Positions 6,513-42,179 of a DNA stretch of 64,000 nucleotides are shown here, piece after piece. Position numbers and translations under genes: made by a program. How positions within the stretch are numbered: the first letter of the stretch is position 1; every line of letters begins with the position of its first letter. The notes under the pieces are model-generated. The model was not told the DNA's origin, did not search any database, and saw only the letters and a program-made list of their open reading frames with translations. The DNA comes from Streptomyces venezuelae (GTDB lineage Bacteria > Actinomycetota > Actinomycetes > Streptomycetales > Streptomycetaceae), in contig NZ_CP029191.1 in the NCBI RefSeq assembly GCF_008642335.1, positions 1,302,001 to 1,366,000 on the forward strand, written 5' to 3'.

Positions 6513-9164
6513 CTACGACAGGATCTCGACGTATCCGGATGTCCCGTGGACACGGATCCGCTGGCCGTCCCGGATCAGACGGGTCGCCTTCTCCACGCCC
6601 ACCACGGCGGGCAGGCCGTACTCCCTGGCGATCACCGCGCCGTGCGTCATCAGGCCGCCCACCTCGGTCACCAGGCCCGCGACGGCGACGAACAGCGGCG
6701 ACCAGCTGGGGTCGGTGAACGTGGTGACGAGGATGTCGCCCGCTTCGAGGTCGGCGTCCGCGATGTCGAGGATGACGCGGGCCCGCCCCTCGACGGTCCC
6801 GGCGGAGACCGCGAGGCCGGTCAGGGCGCCTTCGGGCACGTCGTCGCGACGGTACGCGCCGGTGAGGGCCTCGCCGTCCGAGGTCAGGACGCGGGGCGGC
6901 GTGAGCTCCTCGTGCCACCGGAAGTCGTCCTTGCGCCGCTGGACGAGCCCGGCGTCCAGGCGGTGCGTGCGCACGACGTCACGGAGTTCCTGGAAGGTGA
7001 GGTAGAAGACGTCCTCCTTCTCGGCCAGCACGCCCGCCCGCACGAGGCGTTCGGCCTCGCCCATCAGGGCCTGCTTGTAGACGGAGTAGCGCTGGATGAT
7101 GCCGTACTTCGGGTACTCCCTGTACCCGATGAACGTCCTGACCCGGTCGATCATCCGCTTGGTCTCGTCGGCCTTCACGTCGCCGTCCGGCAGGGCCCGC
7201 AGCCGCGTCAGTACGTCGCGCTCCTTCTCCGCCGCCTTCCGCCGCCCCTGCTCGAAGCGGTGCGCGGCGGCACCGGGGCCGAAGTTCCTGACGTTGTCGA
7301 GGATGACGGGGACGAGCGCGGTGGGGCGCTCGCGCCACCGCGGCCTCGTGATGTCGATCTCGCCGACGCACCGCGCGCCGTACCGGTCGAGGTACGCCTC
7401 GATGGCGTCCCGCGCCTCGGCTCCGCCCGGGAGCGCCGCCAGTTCGCCGCCGCGCAGGAAGTCCTCGTCCTCGACGCCCTGCAGATACGCCACGACCTCC
7501 GGATGCGGTCGGACCGCGTCCGCCACGTCGAGCAGCGCGAGGCCCATCTCGGACGTGACGTTGTCCGGGGCGGACAAGGTGAGCGTGTCGGCCGCGTTCG
7601 TCTCGCCGAGCCATTCCCGCAGTCTCTCGTTGAGCCACCAGGTGGCATCCATGCCCGCCATCAGCGCCTGGAAGCTCAGCGGATCGCTGAGGACCTCCTT
7701 GTGCTCCACGAAGGCCTCTTCGAGGAAGTCGAACAGCTCCGGCCCTGTCTTCGTGCGGATGTCGCGTTGCAGGGCGGCGACGGACGCCTCGCTGCGGGCG
7801 ATCAGCCCGGTGACGATGGCGGGGTCGGGGCCCGAGCCGAGGGCCGGGTCGGGGCCCGGGGCGGGTGCGGCTGCGTCCTGCTCATCCGGCTCGTTCGGCT
7901 CGTCCGGGAGCGCCGTTGCCACGAAGTCGCCGCGGTCGATGACGGTCTCCAGCGCGTCCCTGGTCAGCGGGTCGTGCTTCCCGATGGCATCGAGGAGGGC
8001 GGCGCGGGTGCCGGGCGCGGCCAGGCGCGGGGTCACGTCGACGAAGAGCCGTCCGCCGGCCTCGTACATGTCGGCCATGGCCGTCCGCTGCCACATCGAG
8101 TACCCGAGGGGCTTCATGGCGTCGGTCATCATCTGCTGGTGGCCGACGGAGACGTAGACGCGGTTCTCCGGGCCGCCGCCTTCGCCGGTCTCCCTCCCGG
8201 GGACGGGGAAGAGCGTGGTGATCGGTCGGCTCTGCACGATGTGGAAGCCGTCGTCCGTCAGACACCACTCGATGTCCTGCGGCCGCCCGAAGTGCGCCTC
8301 GATCCGCCGCCCGATCCGTACGAGCTCCACGACCTGGTCGTCCGTCAGCGACGGCTCCTTCTGCCGCCGCGCGTCGAGCGTCACTTCCTCCGTGCCGCCG
8401 GCGGGCAGGGCGTACACGGCGCGTTCCTTGGCGGCGATGGTCCTGTCGACGACCGCGCCGTCCCGCACGGTGAAGACGTCCGGGTTCACGATCCCGGAGA
8501 CCAGGGCCTCGCCGAGGCCGAAGCCCGCGTCCACGGTGGCGGTCTTCCGGTCGCCCGTGACGGGGTCGGCGGTGAAGAGGATGCCCGCGGCGTCCGGGAG
8601 GACCATCCGCTGGACGACGACGGCCATGTGGACCGTCCGGTGGTCGACGCCGTTGCGCCGGCGGTAGATCACGGCGCGCTCGGTGTAGACGGAGGCCCAG
8701 CAGCGCGTGATGTGCCGGAGGATCTCCGCCGTCCCCACGACGTTGAGATACGTGTCCTGCTGGCCCGCGAACGACGCCGTCGGCTGGTCCTCGGCGGTCG
8801 CGCTGGACCGTACGGCATAGGCGGCCCGCTCGCCCCCGTCGGTACGGGCGAGCGCGCGGGTGACCGCTTCCGCGAGGACGTCCGGGAGGGCGATGCCCTC
8901 GATGACCCGGCGGATCTCCGCGCTCAGCGCCCGGACGCCCTCCTGGTCGTCCGGGCTCAGCCGCGCCAGACGGTCGAGCCGGTCGCCGAGGGCGGGCGTC
9001 TCGGCGACGATGTGCCGGTACGCGTCGGTGGTGACGCAGAAACCGGGCGGCACGTGGACGTCGCCGATCCGTGCCAGTGCGCCCAGATGCGCGCCCTTGC
9101 CGCCGACGGCGGCGGTCTGTCGCTCGTCGACTTCAGCGAGGTCGATTACGTACTGCGTGCCCAT
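6513..9164 (-). CDS. rph: Rifampin phosphotransferase (PEP-synthase-like) Rph
   Basis: An 883-residue three-part enzyme: an ATP-binding (PPDK N-terminal) domain at about 1-320 with VGGKGAHLGAL and YAVRSSATAEDQPTASFAGQ; a rifampin-binding helical middle domain; and a C-terminal phosphohistidine domain containing GGLMTHGAVIAREYGLP, with the swinging histidine at about H841. The order and the C-terminal motif match rifampin phosphotransferases, which inactivate rifamycins by phosphorylation using ATP. The start is ATG 9164 (MGTQYVIDL); the frame stays open far upstream without coding character. A Pro/Asp/Glu-rich insert near residues 405-435 is probably a linker. It stands alone on its strand, and the upstream palindrome supports rifamycin-linked expression. 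A PEP synthase paralogue is the alternative, but the position of the His domain and the middle domain favour Rph. Confidence 0.88.
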   Translation of the reverse strand: MGTQYVIDLAEVDERQTAAVGGKGAHLGALARIGDVHVPPGFCVTTDAYRHIVAETPALGDRLDRLARLSPDDQEGVRALSAEIRRVIEGIALPDVLAEAVTRALARTDGGERAAYAVRSSATAEDQPTASFAGQQDTYLNVVGTAEILRHITRCWASVYTERAVIYRRRNGVDHRTVHMAVVVQRMVLPDAAGILFTADPVTGDRKTATVDAGFGLGEALVSGIVNPDVFTVRDGAVVDRTIAAKERAVYALPAGGTEEVTLDARRQKEPSLTDDQVVELVRIGRRIEAHFGRPQDIEWCLTDDGFHIVQSRPITTLFPVPGRETGEGGGPENRVYVSVGHQQMMTDAMKPLGYSMWQRTAMADMYEAGGRLFVDVTPRLAAPGTRAALLDAIGKHDPLTRDALETVIDRGDFVATALPDEPNEPDEQDAAAPAPGPDPALGSGPDPAIVTGLIARSEASVAALQRDIRTKTGPELFDFLEEAFVEHKEVLSDPLSFQALMAGMDATWWLNERLREWLGETNAADTLTLSAPDNVTSEMGLALLDVADAVRPHPEVVAYLQGVEDEDFLRGGELAALPGGAEARDAIEAYLDRYGARCVGEIDITRPRWRERPTALVPVILDNVRNFGPGAAAHRFEQGRRKAAEKERDVLTRLRALPDGDVKADETKRMIDRVRTFIGYREYPKYGIIQRYSVYKQALMGEAERLVRAGVLAEKEDVFYLTFQELRDVVRTHRLDAGLVQRRKDDFRWHEELTPPRVLTSDGEALTGAYRRDDVPEGALTGLAVSAGTVEGRARVILDIADADLEAGDILVTTFTDPSWSPLFVAVAGLVTEVGGLMTHGAVIAREYGLPAVVGVEKATRLIRDGQRIRVHGTSGYVEILS

Positions 9165-9221
9165 CGTTCGGCGCCCCGTTTCCGCAGGTAGTGGCTTCGG
9201 CCGACGATTGTGCGCCGTCCT

Positions 9222-9243
9222 GGGGGCCTTGTGGCAAGCCCCC
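9222..9243. promoter_or_regulatory. Palindrome resembling the rifamycin-associated element (RAE)
   Basis: GGGGGCCTTG at 9222-9231 faces CAAGCCCCC (9235-9243) around a TGG centre. Read on the minus strand it is GGGGCTTGCCACAAGGCCCC, close to my recollection of the ~19-bp RAE found upstream of rph and other rifamycin-inactivation genes in actinomycetes. It sits about 60 bases before the rph start. Within it, TTGCCA (minus, 9237-9232) can act as a -35, paired with CACAAT (9212-9207) at 19 bases. Confidence 0.75.
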
Positions 9244-9257
9244 CAGGACGCTATAAG
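9229..9257 (+). promoter_or_regulatory. Outward-facing promoter overlapping the RAE
   Basis: On the plus strand TTGTGG (9229-9234), part of the palindrome, is separated by 17 bases from TATAAG (9252-9257). Initiation would fall near 9264, immediately before the terminator hairpin at 9266. The product would be a transcript of roughly 40 nucleotides unless termination is suppressed. Confidence 0.5.
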
Positions 9258-9265
9258 TTGAGAGT

Positions 9266-9302
9266 GGCAAGGAGAGCTCGCTCTCCTTGCCTTTTTGTTT
9301 TT
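9266..9302 (+). terminator. Strong intrinsic terminator, plus strand, with no gene upstream
   Basis: GGCAAGGAGAGC (9266-9277) and GCTCTCCTTGCC (9280-9291) form a perfect 12-bp stem with a two-base loop, followed by TTTTTGTTTTT. This is a classical Rho-independent terminator, rare in Streptomyces. It acts only on plus-strand transcripts, yet no plus-strand gene lies between it and the divergent rph gene. Confidence 0.85.
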
Positions 9303-9321
9303 CTCCTCAAGCCACCACGCG

Positions 9322-9372
9322 TGGCACCATAACCCTTCGCGATGGCGCCACATGTGTGCCATGATGGCACCA
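9322..9372 (+). repeat. Three helically phased TGGCRCCA motifs
   Basis: TGGCACCA (9322-9329), TGGCGCCA (9343-9350) and TGGCACCA (9365-9372) are spaced 21 and 22 bases start to start, about two helical turns. Each is (nearly) self-complementary, and a further GTGCCAT-G-ATGGCAC palindrome spans 9356-9370. They lie between the plus-strand terminator and the GtrA-like gene, where an operator array would be expected. Confidence 0.65.
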
Positions 9373-9432
9373 CAGGCGACACGAGGGATTGTCGCAACGG
9401 GGTTTACGGGGCAACGGGGTGGGGAGCCGGAC

Positions 9433-9993
9433 ATGGCATCGACAGAGCACGGAGAGAGACAGGGCCGAGGCCGGGGCCCCGGCGCCTTACACGCCTTCGC
9501 CCGCTTCGTGCTCTGCGGCGGCGGCGTGGGACTCGCCTCCAGCTTCGCCGTGGCGGGCCTCGCCCACTCGGTTCCGTGGGCCATGGCCAACGCGCTGGTC
9601 ACCGTGGTGTCGACGCTTCTCGCCACCGAGCTGCACGCCCGCTTCACCTTCGGCGCGGGCGGCCGGGCGACCTGGCGCCAGCACGTGCAGTCAGCGGGAT
9701 CCGCGGCGGCGGCGTACGTAGTGACCTGTGGAGCGATGCTGGTCCTGCACCAGGTGGTGGCCGCGCCCGGCGCGGTTCTGGAGCAGGTCGTCTACCTGTC
9801 CGCGTCCGCGCTCGCCGGGGTCGCGCGGTTCGCGGTGTTGCGCGCCATCGTCTTCGCCCGCACCCGCCGCCCGCGCCCCGCACCCGCCGACGCATCCCGC
9901 CCGGTCACCGTTGCCGCATCCCGCCCGGTCACCGTGCCCATGGCCCGCGCCGCCGCCCCGGCCGAGGCCGCGGCGCTCTGCCCCGCGGCCTGA
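9433..9993 (+). CDS. GtrA-like small membrane protein
   Basis: A 186-residue protein with four predicted membrane helices at about residues 20-125, beginning FVLCGGGVGLASSF and including the conserved polar TELHARFTFG motif between helices two and three, which is characteristic of the GtrA/DPMS-associated family. Relatives help flip polyprenyl-phosphate sugars or take part in cell-surface polysaccharide modification; no glycosyltransferase partner is adjacent. I start at ATG 9433 (MASTEHGERQ), preceded by GGGGAG; the frame is open further upstream from 9295 but that region holds the terminator tail and repeated operator motifs. The C-terminus is a low-complexity Pro/Ala/Arg tail containing a repeated SRPVTV. 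Confidence 0.72.
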   Translation: MASTEHGERQGRGRGPGALHAFARFVLCGGGVGLASSFAVAGLAHSVPWAMANALVTVVSTLLATELHARFTFGAGGRATWRQHVQSAGSAAAAYVVTCGAMLVLHQVVAAPGAVLEQVVYLSASALAGVARFAVLRAIVFARTRRPRPAPADASRPVTVAASRPVTVPMARAAAPAEAAALCPAA

Positions 9994-10032
9994 CCGGAGG
10001 GGCCACCCCGACCGCCCTGCCGTCTCTCCACG

Positions 10033-11082
10033 TCACACCGCGGACCTCGACTCCGCGGGACGTCGGCGCAGGGCCCGCGCCGTGAGCGAGGGCGGGGTCC
10101 ACACGCCGTCCGGCGGGTAGATGTCGGTGCCGGGAGGCACGATCTCGTCGAGCCGGTCGAGGGTCGCGTCGTCCAGGGACACGGACGCCCCCTTGAGGGT
10201 GGCGCGCAGCTGCTCCATCGTGCGGGGACCGATGATCACCGACGTGACGGCGGGGTGCGCGAGCGGGAAGGCCGTCGCCAACTCCGGCAACGTACAGCCG
10301 AGTTCGTCCGCCACGGCGACGAGCTGCTCCACGACCTCCAGCTTCGCAGCCGTGCGCGGCGCCGCGGGGTCGAAGCGACCCGGGTGCAGGGTCGGACGGC
10401 CGCTGCTCAGATCGAGGGCCCGGCCCTTCCTGTACCGCCCGGTCAGGAACCCCGAGCCGAGCGGGCTCCACGTCAGCACCCCCATGCCGAGCCGCTGCGC
10501 CACCGGCAGCACGTGCCGCTCGATGCCCCGGGCGAGGAGCGAGTAGGGCGGCTGCTCGGTACGGAACCGCTGAAGCCCGCGCCGCTCGGCCACGTGGTAC
10601 GCCTCGACGATGTCGTCGGCCGGGAACGTGGAGCACCCGAACGCCCTGATCTTGCCCTGCCGCACCAGGTCGGTGAGGGCGGAGAGGGTCTCCTCGACGT
10701 CGGTCGTGTGGTCCGGCCGGTGCACCTGGTAGAGGTCGATCCACTCCGTGCCGAGCCGCCGCAGACTGTCCTCGACCGCCCTGACGATCCAACGCCGCGA
10801 ATTGCCGCCGCGGTTGGGCCCCTCCCCCATGGGGAAGTGCACCTTGGTCGCGAGCACCACGTCGTCGCGACGGCCCTTCAACGCCTTGCCGACGATCGTC
10901 TCCGACTCCCCCGCCGAGTACATGTCGGCGGTGTCGACGAAGTTGATCCCTTCGTCGAGCGCGGCATGGACGATCCGGGCACAGTCGTCGTGATCACCGT
11001 TGCCGACGTGCCCGAACATCATGGTGCCGAGGCAGTACGGGCTGACCTGGATCCCGGTCCCGCCCAGAACGCGGTAGCGCAT
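10033..11082 (-). CDS. Aldo/keto reductase
   Basis: A 349-residue TIM-barrel oxidoreductase of the AKR superfamily (YajO/Tas-like subgroup), NADPH-dependent reduction of aldehydes or ketones. The tetrad is visible: Asp and Tyr in FVDTADMYSAGESE, Lys in LATKVHFP and His in IDLYQVHRPD. The C-terminal NADPH-binding signature TSVIIGPRTMEQLRATL is present. The physiological substrate is unknown. It is divergent from the AhpD-ECF41 pair and convergent with the GtrA-like gene. Its promoter has the MerR-type 19-base spacer architecture (separate entry), shared with the second aldo/keto reductase at 23007, suggesting response to electrophile, oxidative or xenobiotic stress. Confidence 0.9.
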   Translation of the reverse strand: MRYRVLGGTGIQVSPYCLGTMMFGHVGNGDHDDCARIVHAALDEGINFVDTADMYSAGESETIVGKALKGRRDDVVLATKVHFPMGEGPNRGGNSRRWIVRAVEDSLRRLGTEWIDLYQVHRPDHTTDVEETLSALTDLVRQGKIRAFGCSTFPADDIVEAYHVAERRGLQRFRTEQPPYSLLARGIERHVLPVAQRLGMGVLTWSPLGSGFLTGRYRKGRALDLSSGRPTLHPGRFDPAAPRTAAKLEVVEQLVAVADELGCTLPELATAFPLAHPAVTSVIIGPRTMEQLRATLKGASVSLDDATLDRLDEIVPPGTDIYPPDGVWTPPSLTARALRRRPAESRSAV

Positions 11083-11119
11083 GCAACTCTCCTTGGGGTT
11101 CGCCCTCTTGGAGCGCCAG

Positions 11120-11150
11120 ACGTTACGACGTGGAGTGCGCTCCAGGGCAA
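11120..11150 (-). promoter_or_regulatory. MerR-type promoter of the aldo/keto reductase gene
   Basis: On the minus strand TTGCCC (11150-11145) and TAACGT (11125-11120) are separated by 19 bases, the overlong spacing typical of MerR-activated promoters. The spacer holds the perfect dyad TGGAG-CGCA-CTCCA (11131-11144). The same arrangement precedes the other aldo/keto reductase gene. Confidence 0.75.
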
Positions 11151-11180
11151 CAGCTCCGAGACGCAGGTCACATCCAGGTG

Positions 11181-11207
11181 TGTCACAGGGGGATCCGCTG
11201 TCTCGTC
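11181..11207 (+). promoter_or_regulatory. ECF41-type sigma factor promoter
   Basis: TGTCACA (11181-11187), exactly 16 bases, then CGTC (11204-11207) matches the ECF41 consensus TGTCACA-N16-CGTC that I recall from characterised ECF41 systems. It lies about 65 bases upstream of the AhpD-like gene whose operon encodes the ECF41 factor, implying autoregulation. Confidence 0.85.
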
Positions 11208-11272
11208 CCAGGGGGTGTAGAAGCCGGGGGTCGGGAAGGGCCGTCGGGGAACGTCACCGTAGGGAGCACAGC

Positions 11273-11746
11273 ATGGACGCGCGACTGAACTACATGAGCC
11301 GGCCCAACGCCGGGAAGGCCATGAAGTACTTCCTGTCGGGGGTCAAGGCGCTGCAGGACACGACGCTGGCGCCGGCGACGCAGGAGCTGGTGGCGTTGCG
11401 GGTCAGTCAGATCAACGGGTGTGCGGGCTGCATCGACATGCACACCAAGGAGGCCGCGCTGGCGGGTGAGACCCCGGCGCGGCTGAATCTGGTGGCGGCG
11501 TGGCGCGAGGCCACCGTCTTCACCGAGGCCGAACGCGCCGCGCTGGAGCTGGCGGAGGAGGGCACCCGGGTCGCGGACGCGGCCGGTGGCGTGGCCGATG
11601 ACGTGTGGGAGCGCGCCGCGCGCCACTACGACGAGGACGAACTCACCGCGCTGGTGGTCCACATCGGGTTCATGAATATGGTGAACCGGCTGAACGTCAT
11701 CACGCGGCAGCCGGCGGGCGACTACGTGCCGGGACAGCTGCACTGA
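11273..11746 (+). CDS. AhpD-like carboxymuconolactone decarboxylase family protein
   Basis: A 157-residue all-helical protein of the carboxymuconolactone decarboxylase/AhpD family. It carries the peroxidase-type motif GCAGCIDMHTKEA, in which the CxxC pair plus downstream His form the redox centre (about residues 46-54). Homologues act as alkylhydroperoxidase-like antioxidants. ATG 11273 follows AGGGAGC with good spacing. It is the first gene of a two-gene unit with an ECF41 sigma factor 31 bases downstream, the classical arrangement for that sigma group, and an exact ECF41 promoter precedes it. The physiological substrate of these ECF41-linked proteins has not been established. Confidence 0.9.
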   Translation: MDARLNYMSRPNAGKAMKYFLSGVKALQDTTLAPATQELVALRVSQINGCAGCIDMHTKEAALAGETPARLNLVAAWREATVFTEAERAALELAEEGTRVADAAGGVADDVWERAARHYDEDELTALVVHIGFMNMVNRLNVITRQPAGDYVPGQLH

Positions 11747-11777
11747 CCGGGCCGAACAGGGAGCAACGGGGGGCCAT

Positions 11778-12710
11778 ATGAGCAAGGTCGAGGAGTTCGA
11801 GGAGCTGCGGCCGCTGCTGTTCTCGATCGCGTACCGGATCCTCGGCAGCGTGGGCGAGGCCGAGGACGCGGTGCAGGAGACATGGCTGCGCTTCGACGGC
11901 TCCACGACCCGGCCCGCGTCGACCAAGGCGTATCTGTCCGCCGCGGTCACGCGGGTCGCCATCGACGTGCTGCGGTCGGCGCGGGTGCGGCGCGAGCAGT
12001 ACGTGGGTCCGTGGTTCCCCGAGCCGCTCCTGAACGATCCGTACGAGGATCCGGCGCGGGCGGCGGAGCTCGCCGAGTCGGTGTCGATGGCCGCGCTCGT
12101 CCTGCTGGAGCGGCTCAGTCCGCTGGAGCGGGCCGTGTTCGTGCTGCGGGACGTGTTCGGGTTCGAGTTCGACGAGGTCGCGGAGGCGGTGGAGCGGTCC
12201 CAGGCGGCCTGCCGGCAGCTCCTCGTGCGGGCGCGGCGGCACATGCGGGCGGGGCAGCCGCGGTTCGCTGCGGCGCGCGACGAGCGGGAGAGGCTGGCGT
12301 CCCGCTTCTTCGACGCGCTCAGCGAGGGCAACCTGGCCGGGCTGCGGGACCTGCTCTCCGCCGAGGTGTCGATGATCGGCGACGGCGGCGGCAACGCGCC
12401 GCAGCTGTCCAGGCCGCTCGCCGGTCCCGACCAGGTGGCCCGGATCCTTGCGATGGCGTTCCCGCGGATGGCGGGGATCGGCGTGACGTACGAGACGTAC
12501 GAGATCAACAGCCGGCCCGGCGCGGTCTTCCGCGACCGCGACGGCAAGGTCGTCCACACGCTGGGCCTCGACGTGGCCGACGGGCGGATCCAGATGATCC
12601 GTCTCGTCATCAACCCCGACAAGCTGCGGCACCTGGGGCCGACGGCGGACATCTGGGCCATCGACCACGCGACGCGGCACGCGCATCGGCTCCCGCAGTC
12701 GGCGGAGTAG
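11778..12710 (+). CDS. ECF41-family RNA polymerase sigma factor (SigJ-like)
   Basis: A 310-residue extracytoplasmic-function sigma factor, much longer than usual because of a C-terminal SnoaL-like extension. Region 2 lies at about residues 10-75 (LFSIAYRILGSVGEAEDAVQ), region 4 at about 110-165 (LSPLERAVFVLRDVFGF). The extension contains the ECF41 hallmarks DGGG (about residue 200) and NPDKL (about residue 288), which are reported to modulate sigma activity in cis in place of an anti-sigma factor. Genetic linkage to an AhpD-like protein and the matching upstream promoter agree. No anti-sigma gene is present. The inducing signal is unknown. Confidence 0.93.
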   Translation: MSKVEEFEELRPLLFSIAYRILGSVGEAEDAVQETWLRFDGSTTRPASTKAYLSAAVTRVAIDVLRSARVRREQYVGPWFPEPLLNDPYEDPARAAELAESVSMAALVLLERLSPLERAVFVLRDVFGFEFDEVAEAVERSQAACRQLLVRARRHMRAGQPRFAAARDERERLASRFFDALSEGNLAGLRDLLSAEVSMIGDGGGNAPQLSRPLAGPDQVARILAMAFPRMAGIGVTYETYEINSRPGAVFRDRDGKVVHTLGLDVADGRIQMIRLVINPDKLRHLGPTADIWAIDHATRHAHRLPQSAE

Positions 12711-12777
12711 GCCCCCCGGAAGGCGCGGCCATCTTGGCCGCCTTGCCTCCGGACGCGCCCGCGGAGCATGCTCAGGT

Positions 12778-13650
12778 ATGACGATCTTGAGCGATGCGCG
12801 GCGCGGCGCACGGTCCGGTGCCGTACTGGCCGCCGCCATCGCCGCCTTCGGCCTGACGGCCGGCTGCGGAGGCGGGGACGGGGACGGGGACGAGGGCGAC
12901 GGTGCCCGGGGCGGGCTCGGTGCCGACCAGCGGCGGCGGGCGGACCAGCTGGTGAGCGTCTTCGAGAACGGCACCACCAGGATCCAGTACGCGTACGCGG
13001 AGAACCTCGGCGACGGCCGGGGCGTCACCGCGGGCCGCGCGGGCTTCACGACCGGCGACGGCGACGCGCTCGAAGTGGTCCGGGCCTACACGAAGCGGGT
13101 GCCGGACAATCCCTTCGCCCGCTTCGTCCCCGGTCTGGAACGCGAAGCCCGTGGGACCGGCGGGAAGGGTTCGGGCGGGTCCGGGGCGCCGTTCCCCGAC
13201 GCCGAGTTCATCGCCGCCTGGAAGCGCGCCGCCGCCGACCCCGCGTTCCGCGACGTGCAGGACGCGCAGGTCGACGAGCGCTACTTCACGCCCGCCGCCC
13301 GGGCCGCCGAGAAGGCCGGTCTCCGCAGCCCGCTCGCGCTCGCCGAGCTGTACGACGCCTCGATCCAGCACGGCAACGGTCCCGACCGGGACGGGCTGCC
13401 CGCCCTGATCAAGCGGACGACGGCGGAGGCCGGGCCGCCGTCGAAGGCGGGCGAGAAGGCGTGGCTGGACGCGTTCTTCGACGTACGCGTCGACGATCTG
13501 ACCCACCCCGCGAACCCTGACACCGCCGAGGAGTGGCGCAAGTCCGTCGATCGCGTCGAGGCGCTGCGCCGCATCGCGAAGAGCGGCAACCGCGACCTCG
13601 ACGGGCCGTTCGAGGTCACCGCGTTCGGCAGTACGCACACGATCAAGTGA
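12778..13650 (+). CDS. Secreted chitosanase, GH46 family, lipoprotein-type signal
   Basis: A 290-residue exported enzyme. The N-terminus is a lipoprotein signal with lipobox LTAGC (Cys30), then a Gly/Asp-rich linker. The catalytic domain shows the GH46 pattern DQLVSVFENGTTRIQYAY with the likely acid Glu63, and LGDGRGVTAGRAGF with the likely second carboxylate Asp79; the downstream FVPGLE, YFTPAAR and DASIQHGNG segments also fit. GH46 enzymes cleave beta-1,4 bonds in chitosan by inversion. Membrane anchoring is unusual because most Streptomyces chitosanases are freely secreted. A CATGCT hexamer close to the ATG suggests a short or absent leader. The gene is convergent with the DUF5997 gene. 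Confidence 0.87.
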   Translation: MTILSDARRGARSGAVLAAAIAAFGLTAGCGGGDGDGDEGDGARGGLGADQRRRADQLVSVFENGTTRIQYAYAENLGDGRGVTAGRAGFTTGDGDALEVVRAYTKRVPDNPFARFVPGLEREARGTGGKGSGGSGAPFPDAEFIAAWKRAAADPAFRDVQDAQVDERYFTPAARAAEKAGLRSPLALAELYDASIQHGNGPDRDGLPALIKRTTAEAGPPSKAGEKAWLDAFFDVRVDDLTHPANPDTAEEWRKSVDRVEALRRIAKSGNRDLDGPFEVTAFGSTHTIK

Positions 13651-41879: not shown

Positions 41880-42173
41880 GGATCCTCCTCGGTAGCACCA
41901 CGCGACCGTCTGGCGGACAGCCGCGTTACGTCTGTTAACTGGACCAACCGCGCGGAGCCATAAAAAATGCCCCGACCGATCACTGAGGGGCTCCATGTAC
42001 TACCGGAGCACCTCCGCGGTGATCGCGGGGCGCACATCGGGCGACCCGAAGCCTCGGGGACTTCGGCCGCCTGACCGGTGACCCGCCGCTCCGGGGAGCG
42101 GTCAGGTGGGAGAACGGAGCCTCCACTTGTGGGCCGGATCCTTGCGCTGACACGCGGGTATCCAGCCGGTCGT
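41880..42173 (-). ncRNA. Long structured 5' leader of the infC operon
   Basis: From the predicted start near 42173 to the AUC codon the leader is about 294 nucleotides and contains no convincing gene. It includes several GC-rich stem-loops (for example around 42070-42120) and ends with the terminator-like hairpin. Leaders of infC-rpmI-rplT operate as L20- or IF-3-responsive controls in other bacteria. Confidence 0.55.
41962..41994 (-). terminator. Attenuator-like hairpin in the infC leader
   Basis: On the minus strand GCCCC (41991-41987) pairs with GGGGC (41973-41969), followed by A and TTTTTT (41967-41962). An alternative pairing, GGAGCC (41994-41989) with GGCTCC (41959-41954), shares bases with the first stem, so the two folds exclude one another, as terminator and antiterminator do. 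Confidence 0.6.
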
Positions 42174-42179
42174 TACACA

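Follow-up and report, generated by a model that had tools for sequence, protein, structure and literature searches.

A predicted outward promoter arm, often followed by a terminator, accompanies the RAE upstream of rifamycin-resistance genes

The rifamycin-associated element (RAE) of actinobacteria, a palindrome that lies before rifamycin-resistance genes and overlaps the −35 element of the gene promoter (PMC10719064, PMC8655204), appears to serve two back-to-back promoters as a common −35 core, one promoter directed into the resistance gene and the other outward. The outward arm accompanies the RAE almost everywhere we examined it and may be part of rifamycin sensing. Sequence comparison establishes both arms, their fixed asymmetry, a predicted terminator behind the outward arm and the tie to five classes of rifamycin-resistance genes, and we consider this two-arm anatomy very likely. 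The RAE of the literature is the same with respect to the palindrome, the place before resistance genes and the −35 overlap, but consists of the palindrome and sense promoters only, the outward arm and the terminator being added here. No description of an outward RAE promoter or terminator was found in the literature covered, PMC11077062 included; the primary RAE and HelR papers lie outside this scope, so that an earlier mention is possible.

The RAE locus upstream of rph

The window, a 64,000-nt stretch of the Streptomyces venezuelae genome (8.05 Mb, one contig), contains an RAE at 9223–9243 (contig positions 1311223–1311243; no strand is assigned to the palindrome). It reads GGGGCCTTGTGGCAAGCCCCC, a 21-bp match to GGGGNCTTGNNNCAAGNCCCC in which the 19-bp RAE palindrome is exact, and it precedes a rifamycin-resistance gene, rph (6513–9164, minus strand), encoding an 883-aa rifamycin-inactivating phosphotransferase (NF041857, 1548.5 bits against a cut-off of 999) whose top PDB relatives are filed as phosphoenolpyruvate synthase. 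At this locus, the palindrome runs 7 bases further on each side (CAGGACG on both), spanning 9216–9250.

Both strands of the RAE provide a TTG-type −35 element, as the earlier note had proposed. On the minus strand, judged by sequence and conservation, TTGCCA (9232–9237) is followed after a 19-bp spacer by the −10 CACAAT (9207–9212), which places the predicted start near 9200 and a predicted rph leader at 9165–9200. In many loci, this gene-side leader keeps a GGCCGAGGCCAGGACCTGCGGAAA-like motif before different resistance genes. On the plus strand, TTGTGG (9229–9234; TTG is present here in all 147 loci compared below, by design of the search pattern) is followed after a 19-bp spacer by TAAGTT (9254–9259), the conserved −10 register, and by the discriminator GAGAGT (9260–9265), both assigned by conservation. 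The start predicted from this −10 lies at about 9266, and the predicted outward RNA (9266–9302, plus strand) consists only of a terminator, with the hairpin at 9266–9291 and a T-rich tail, the U-tract of the RNA, at 9292–9302. The hairpin has a perfect 11-bp stem, 1 bp shorter than first described, and a 4-nt loop (MFE −20.8 kcal/mol, z −4.3, none of 200 shuffles as good); with TTTTTGTTTTT, termination is predicted, and the outward promoter should yield an RNA of 32–36 nt. It had been remarked that no plus-strand gene lies there; a GtrA-like plus-strand open reading frame exists but begins only at 9433, about 130 bp past the terminator (PF04138, 23.7 bits, below the cut-off of 26.1). Further along the plus strand, an AhpD-domain gene is followed by a SigJ-type sigma factor gene (11273–12710), and the window also contains an Rfam Scr1601 small RNA on the minus strand (41962–42174; 166.3 bits, gathering score 100).

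From this single sequence, the claim of an outward promoter and terminator is weak: a generic sigma-70 scan of 7000–13000 found no promoter, and the one terminator-like site in that region is at chance level (1.1 expected). The support comes from comparison. The source genome contains two perfect RAEs, one at rph and the other at helR, and both are followed by the same outward block, namely CTATAA(G/C)TTGAGAGTGGCAAG, a hairpin and CTTGCCTTT.

Conservation and asymmetry of the two arms

An exact RAE match was detected in 141 of 199 Streptomyces genomes, and across the class, 132 of 296 genomes (49 of 105 genera) contain the 19-bp core. The comparison was made on 147 loci, 77 from Streptomyces and 70 from 13 other families: the two of the source genome, 30 each delivered by the Streptomyces and the class searches, 45 added Streptomyces rows (all others among the matches listed) and 40 class rows hand-picked for family spread among the matches listed. 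One locus with two mismatches (L003) was left out of all counts. The genes downstream of the 147 RAEs, assigned by tblastn to representatives, encode HelR (68), Rox (40), Rgt-like proteins (18), Rph (13), Arr (5) and other products (3). The Rox and Arr representatives pass their NCBIfam models, as do 483 residues of P0002, the HelR protein of the source genome (NF041254, 775.8 against a cut-off of 750); the Rgt representative scores below its model (492 bits, cut-off 800). At one locus (L068, family f14), the gene behind an RAE that has both arms and an outward terminator encodes a DrrA-type ABC transporter ATPase and may be another rifamycin-regulated gene.

With positions numbered outward from the palindrome (1–21), A33 and T37 are present on both sides in 143 of the 147 loci, on one side in two and on neither in two, counted before the loci were oriented; this amounts to 288 of 294 sides. 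Of 23 other offsets, 22 gave at most 30 loci, and offset 39, which lands in the outward discriminator, gave 107. In Streptomyces, the outward −10 is TAnnnT starting at position 32 in 75 of 77 loci, and the outward arm generally combines a TAnnnT −10 with the conserved discriminator TTGAGAGTGG, whereas the gene-side −10 is CAGAAT or CACAAT in 119 of 147 loci. The asymmetry is fixed: the outward −10 begins with TA and the gene-side one does not in 143 of 147 loci, and the roles are never swapped. The earlier note had read the outward promoter as TTGTGG-17-TATAAG (−10 at 9252–9257, plus strand). The promoter-like arm stands, but the register is probably TAAGTT-19, 2 bp away; we prefer it because of the A33/T37 conservation and because several loci of family f4 (L084, L087 and L089) have TACAGT, TATGGT or TAAAGT and lack the earlier TATA.

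The link between core and arms holds in both directions. Among 30 loci from Streptomyces genomes without a 21-bp match, both arms are present at each of the 20 whose 19-bp core is intact, and neither arm at any of the 10 one-mismatch chance palindromes. Conversely, when the genome collection was scanned with the outward motif alone, at least 117 occurrences were found, and 115 of the 117 among the matches listed carry an RAE core (of the remaining two, one has a degenerate core and one is unrelated), at a distance of 13 bp in 114 and 12 bp in one; the gene arm is in register in 113 of these 115 and one base off in the other two. It is the presence of both arms in 143 of 147 loci, together with these reciprocal matches, that makes the RAE appear to be a shared −35 core. 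Coupled spacing of the arms was considered, given one locus shifted by one base on both sides (L024) and one degenerate on both (L065), but is not claimed because five others (L052, L117, L201, L258 and L291) changed on one side only. A search within 300 bp for an upstream gene-directed consensus promoter gave one match in the 77 Streptomyces loci, with a pattern that requires TAnnnT and would miss weak or CAGAAT-type promoters. A gene-side dyad, CCGCAG...CTGCGG, is perfect in 10 of 77 loci and was set aside.

In a phylum-wide sample, 13 of 119 genomes match, five of them outside the class. Four of six out-of-class palindromes have both arms, but two of these four (L322 and L325) are very Streptomyces-like, so that contamination or transfer is possible; L316 and L324 are more diverged. 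Of the 58 Streptomyces genomes without a 21-bp match, 32 were also searched for HelR; one (G187) encodes a close HelR (78% identity), upstream of which no RAE was seen by eye, and the others have, among the matches listed, only HelR relatives of at most 43% identity.

The main alternative to a promoter-based switch is that the RAE is the operator of a dimeric rifamycin-responsive transcription factor, in which case the outward arm would be co-regulated as a by-product and would need a terminator. An unknown factor acting at the RAE has been proposed in reviews, although none is named in the literature passages on the RAE; the palindrome arms are conserved past a plain −35 (by construction of the search), and their GGGG/CCCC arms could mean a dimeric protein. 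Furthermore, within a locus, bases 22–26 match between the two sides more often than expected (0.408 against 0.344, z 5.4, none of 2000 permutations, 147 loci) without any fixed sequence. There is no excess at 27–31, 45–52 or 53–60 and only a slight one at 32–37 (z 2.4) and 38–44 (z 2.3). Template-switch mutation could account for this flank agreement, as could a hairpin or a protein dimer; the outer flanks, moreover, differ between the two RAEs of the source genome. A by-product would have no need of stronger conservation than the gene arm, nor would it have to retain its own discriminator and first bases. On balance, we regard a dimeric factor with a by-product arm as unlikely, albeit the strongest competitor of an outward arm that itself works in regulation.

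The outward terminator and the predicted RNA

The outward promoter is frequently aimed straight into a terminator, in agreement with the earlier proposal. Under a strict rule (8 or more pairs with no more than one mismatch, a 5' base at positions 43–46 and four or more T in the next 8), an outward terminator is predicted at 55 of the 77 Streptomyces loci and at 20 of the other 68 (two loci, L044 and L047, are outside the hairpin counts as their contigs end there), but on the gene side in 0 of 77 and 0 of 68, and in 8 of 2310 and 5 of 2040 random windows, respectively. The rule finds none in the other 22 and 48 loci. Only strict counts are used because a looser rule (6 pairs) is satisfied by 55% of random windows. 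Absence of the hairpin from close relatives, which had been named as the outcome that would count against the proposal, is thus not what the Streptomyces loci show. Within Streptomyces, the terminator is present in all 23 Rox loci, 17 of 34 HelR, 10 of 14 Rgt-like and 5 of 6 Rph loci. In family f4 (L083–L089, five of them Arr loci), the outward promoter and discriminator are retained but the terminator is absent (0 of 7 loci even under the looser rule), so that outward transcripts would be expected to extend further.

Position 44 is the commonest 5' base of the hairpin (69 of 77 Streptomyces loci, a count that includes L024 in the opposite orientation), an inner start at 45 being nearly equal (67). 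From position 44 to the end of the stem, the Streptomyces loci span a median of 26 nt, which implies that the predicted outward RNA is little more than the terminator. The right arm CCTTGCC or a G-U variant occurs in 100 of the 117 listed motif-selected loci, in which the left arm was fixed by the search, compared to 184 of 20000 random windows. Two-sided pair changes exceed those in all 500 shuffles, both across all 77 Streptomyces loci (23 against 12.5 cells, in an alignment with partly misaligned rows, where a 3' arm slid by +1 has a higher covariation score, 0.214 against 0.191) and in a set of 51 sequences hand-picked for having the hairpin (39 against 10.4 cells).

Such pair changes, and the prediction of a discrete, strongly folded short RNA, are what one would expect of a regulatory small RNA that targets the mRNA or the polymerase or acts in trans. 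Nevertheless, the loop and the top of the stem are variable, Rfam covariance models gave no match in 9100–9500 up to E 1, and the promoter, with its discriminator conserved though less strongly, is kept in 31 loci that lack the hairpin. In these, positions 44–52 retain a majority base at 0.66 and purine at 0.86, compared to 0.43 and 0.50 at positions 53–61 (the majority at 44–52 is 0.84 in the 103 hairpin loci); conservation of 44–52 without a hairpin points to promoter behaviour, not to an RNA. A small RNA function therefore seems improbable.

Bacterial promoters often fire in both directions owing to sequence symmetry, and among five tested, competition between the directions was negligible at basal activity (PMC12825309), so the outward arm might be unselected divergent noise of a palindromic site. 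We consider this a poor prospect as well, since the two −10s are separate, unlike each other and each conserved, and the terminator follows the outward one only. Finally, that the terminator insulates the neighbouring gene from the outward promoter, as suggested for the GtrA-like gene because the terminator lies between the two at the window locus, is disfavoured to the point of being very hard to maintain: terminators are equally common beside divergent and tail-on neighbours (29 of 39 against 22 of 32 in Streptomyces, p 0.61; 5 of 16 against 11 of 38 in other families, p 1.0; neighbours called by a simple codon-composition script, with 22 of 147 loci lacking a call).

A possible two-sided rifamycin switch

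The response of the RAE to rifamycins is called unresolved in the literature (PMC12802891, PMC10719064), and the discussion in PMC12802891 states that the RAE genes are not of the convergent kind and that their mechanism remains to be found. The most similar known arrangement is the Bacillus subtilis helD/pps alarm, in which a sense promoter before a rifamycin-protection gene is likewise paired with an antisense promoter and an intrinsic terminator (PMC12802891). In helD, the antisense promoter, which is the stronger one and has a proximal terminator (transcript of about 94 nt), keeps the sense promoter repressed until sub-inhibitory rifampicin lifts the repression (PMC12802891). The RAE locus shares the predicted terminator after the antisense promoter (9266–9302 in the window). 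Judged by sequence, its outward −10 is better than the gene-side one. The geometry differs, however: the B. subtilis promoters converge, with starts 39 bp apart (the search in PMC12802891 was for 45–100 bp between convergent promoters), whereas the RAE arms diverge and overlap in a common −35 region. The E. coli bidirectional promoters are similar in that symmetric DNA engages polymerase in two mutually exclusive orientations, but they share the −10, with starts most often 18 bp apart (PMC12825309), whereas the RAE shares the −35, each arm has its own −10 and the predicted starts are about 66 bp apart.

In our view, the outward arm likely has a functional role in the regulation, and among the candidate functions a sensor role is favoured; the idea in the earlier note, that rifamycin-affected polymerase behaves differently on the two sides, is in keeping with the constant asymmetry between the arms (143 of 147). 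The best explanation, to which we give an even chance, is a shared −35 with an outward braking and sensing arm that rifamycin disables; that the arm acts specifically as a brake released by the drug is put forward a little more tentatively. Under the best explanation, the RAE would be the common −35 centre of two back-to-back housekeeping-type promoters of equal geometry. The gene arm would be weak, with a CAGAAT-like −10 and a GC-rich discriminator, and the better −10 (TAnnnT) would belong to the outward arm, whose discriminator (GAGAGT) and first bases are rich in purines, all judged by sequence. Most Streptomyces outward transcripts would end within about 35 nt, and with a terminator that starts at the predicted +1, the outward arm would drive no gene. 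When the drug is absent, outward polymerase traffic would deny the gene arm the shared site; polymerase locked by rifamycin would halt this traffic and free the gene arm.

Least secure in this scheme is the release step, which requires the locked complex either to tolerate gene-side initiation or to be removed by a factor. Simple bookkeeping with one polymerase pool and strictly exclusive promoters never yields a gene-side gain above 1-fold (in the values tried and by algebra), which rules out strictly exclusive competition as the induction mechanism and requires co-occupancy, a removing factor or a transcription factor. A calculation in which the gene side can still fire beside a locked outward complex gives gains of 5.5 to 47.5-fold, assuming 1–5% locked polymerase, a residence of 10–1000 times normal and an occupancy constant of 50. 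Several published observations bear on the best explanation. Deletion of the upstream half of the RAE abolishes induction (PMC10719064), but also takes out the gene-side −35. In Mycobacterium smegmatis, the sense start (P1) lies about 20 bp upstream of the RAE, near the outward start predicted here, which counts against it; an antisense start goes unmentioned in the passages of PMC10719064 that bear on this promoter. The convergence of the B. subtilis promoters and the loss of induction there when the promoter distance is shortened by 17 bp, where a clash would be expected (PMC12802891), count against it as well.

The boldest version, which we regard as doubtful although worth stating, dispenses with a dedicated regulator: the palindrome would be two overlapping −35 regions, RNA polymerase itself would sense rifamycin, with the futile outward promoter-terminator arm as its antenna, and rifamycin-locked outward polymerase would free the gene arm. 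If this is correct, the actinobacterial switch would be an independent counterpart, of divergent geometry, of the Bacillus alarm. In any case, a second conserved promoter arm, often with its own terminator, makes the question of how the RAE responds directly testable. If the arm is a sensor, polymerase traffic as a drug detector would be one principle common to actinobacterial rph, rox, rgt, arr and helR, parallel to the Bacillus system but different in geometry.
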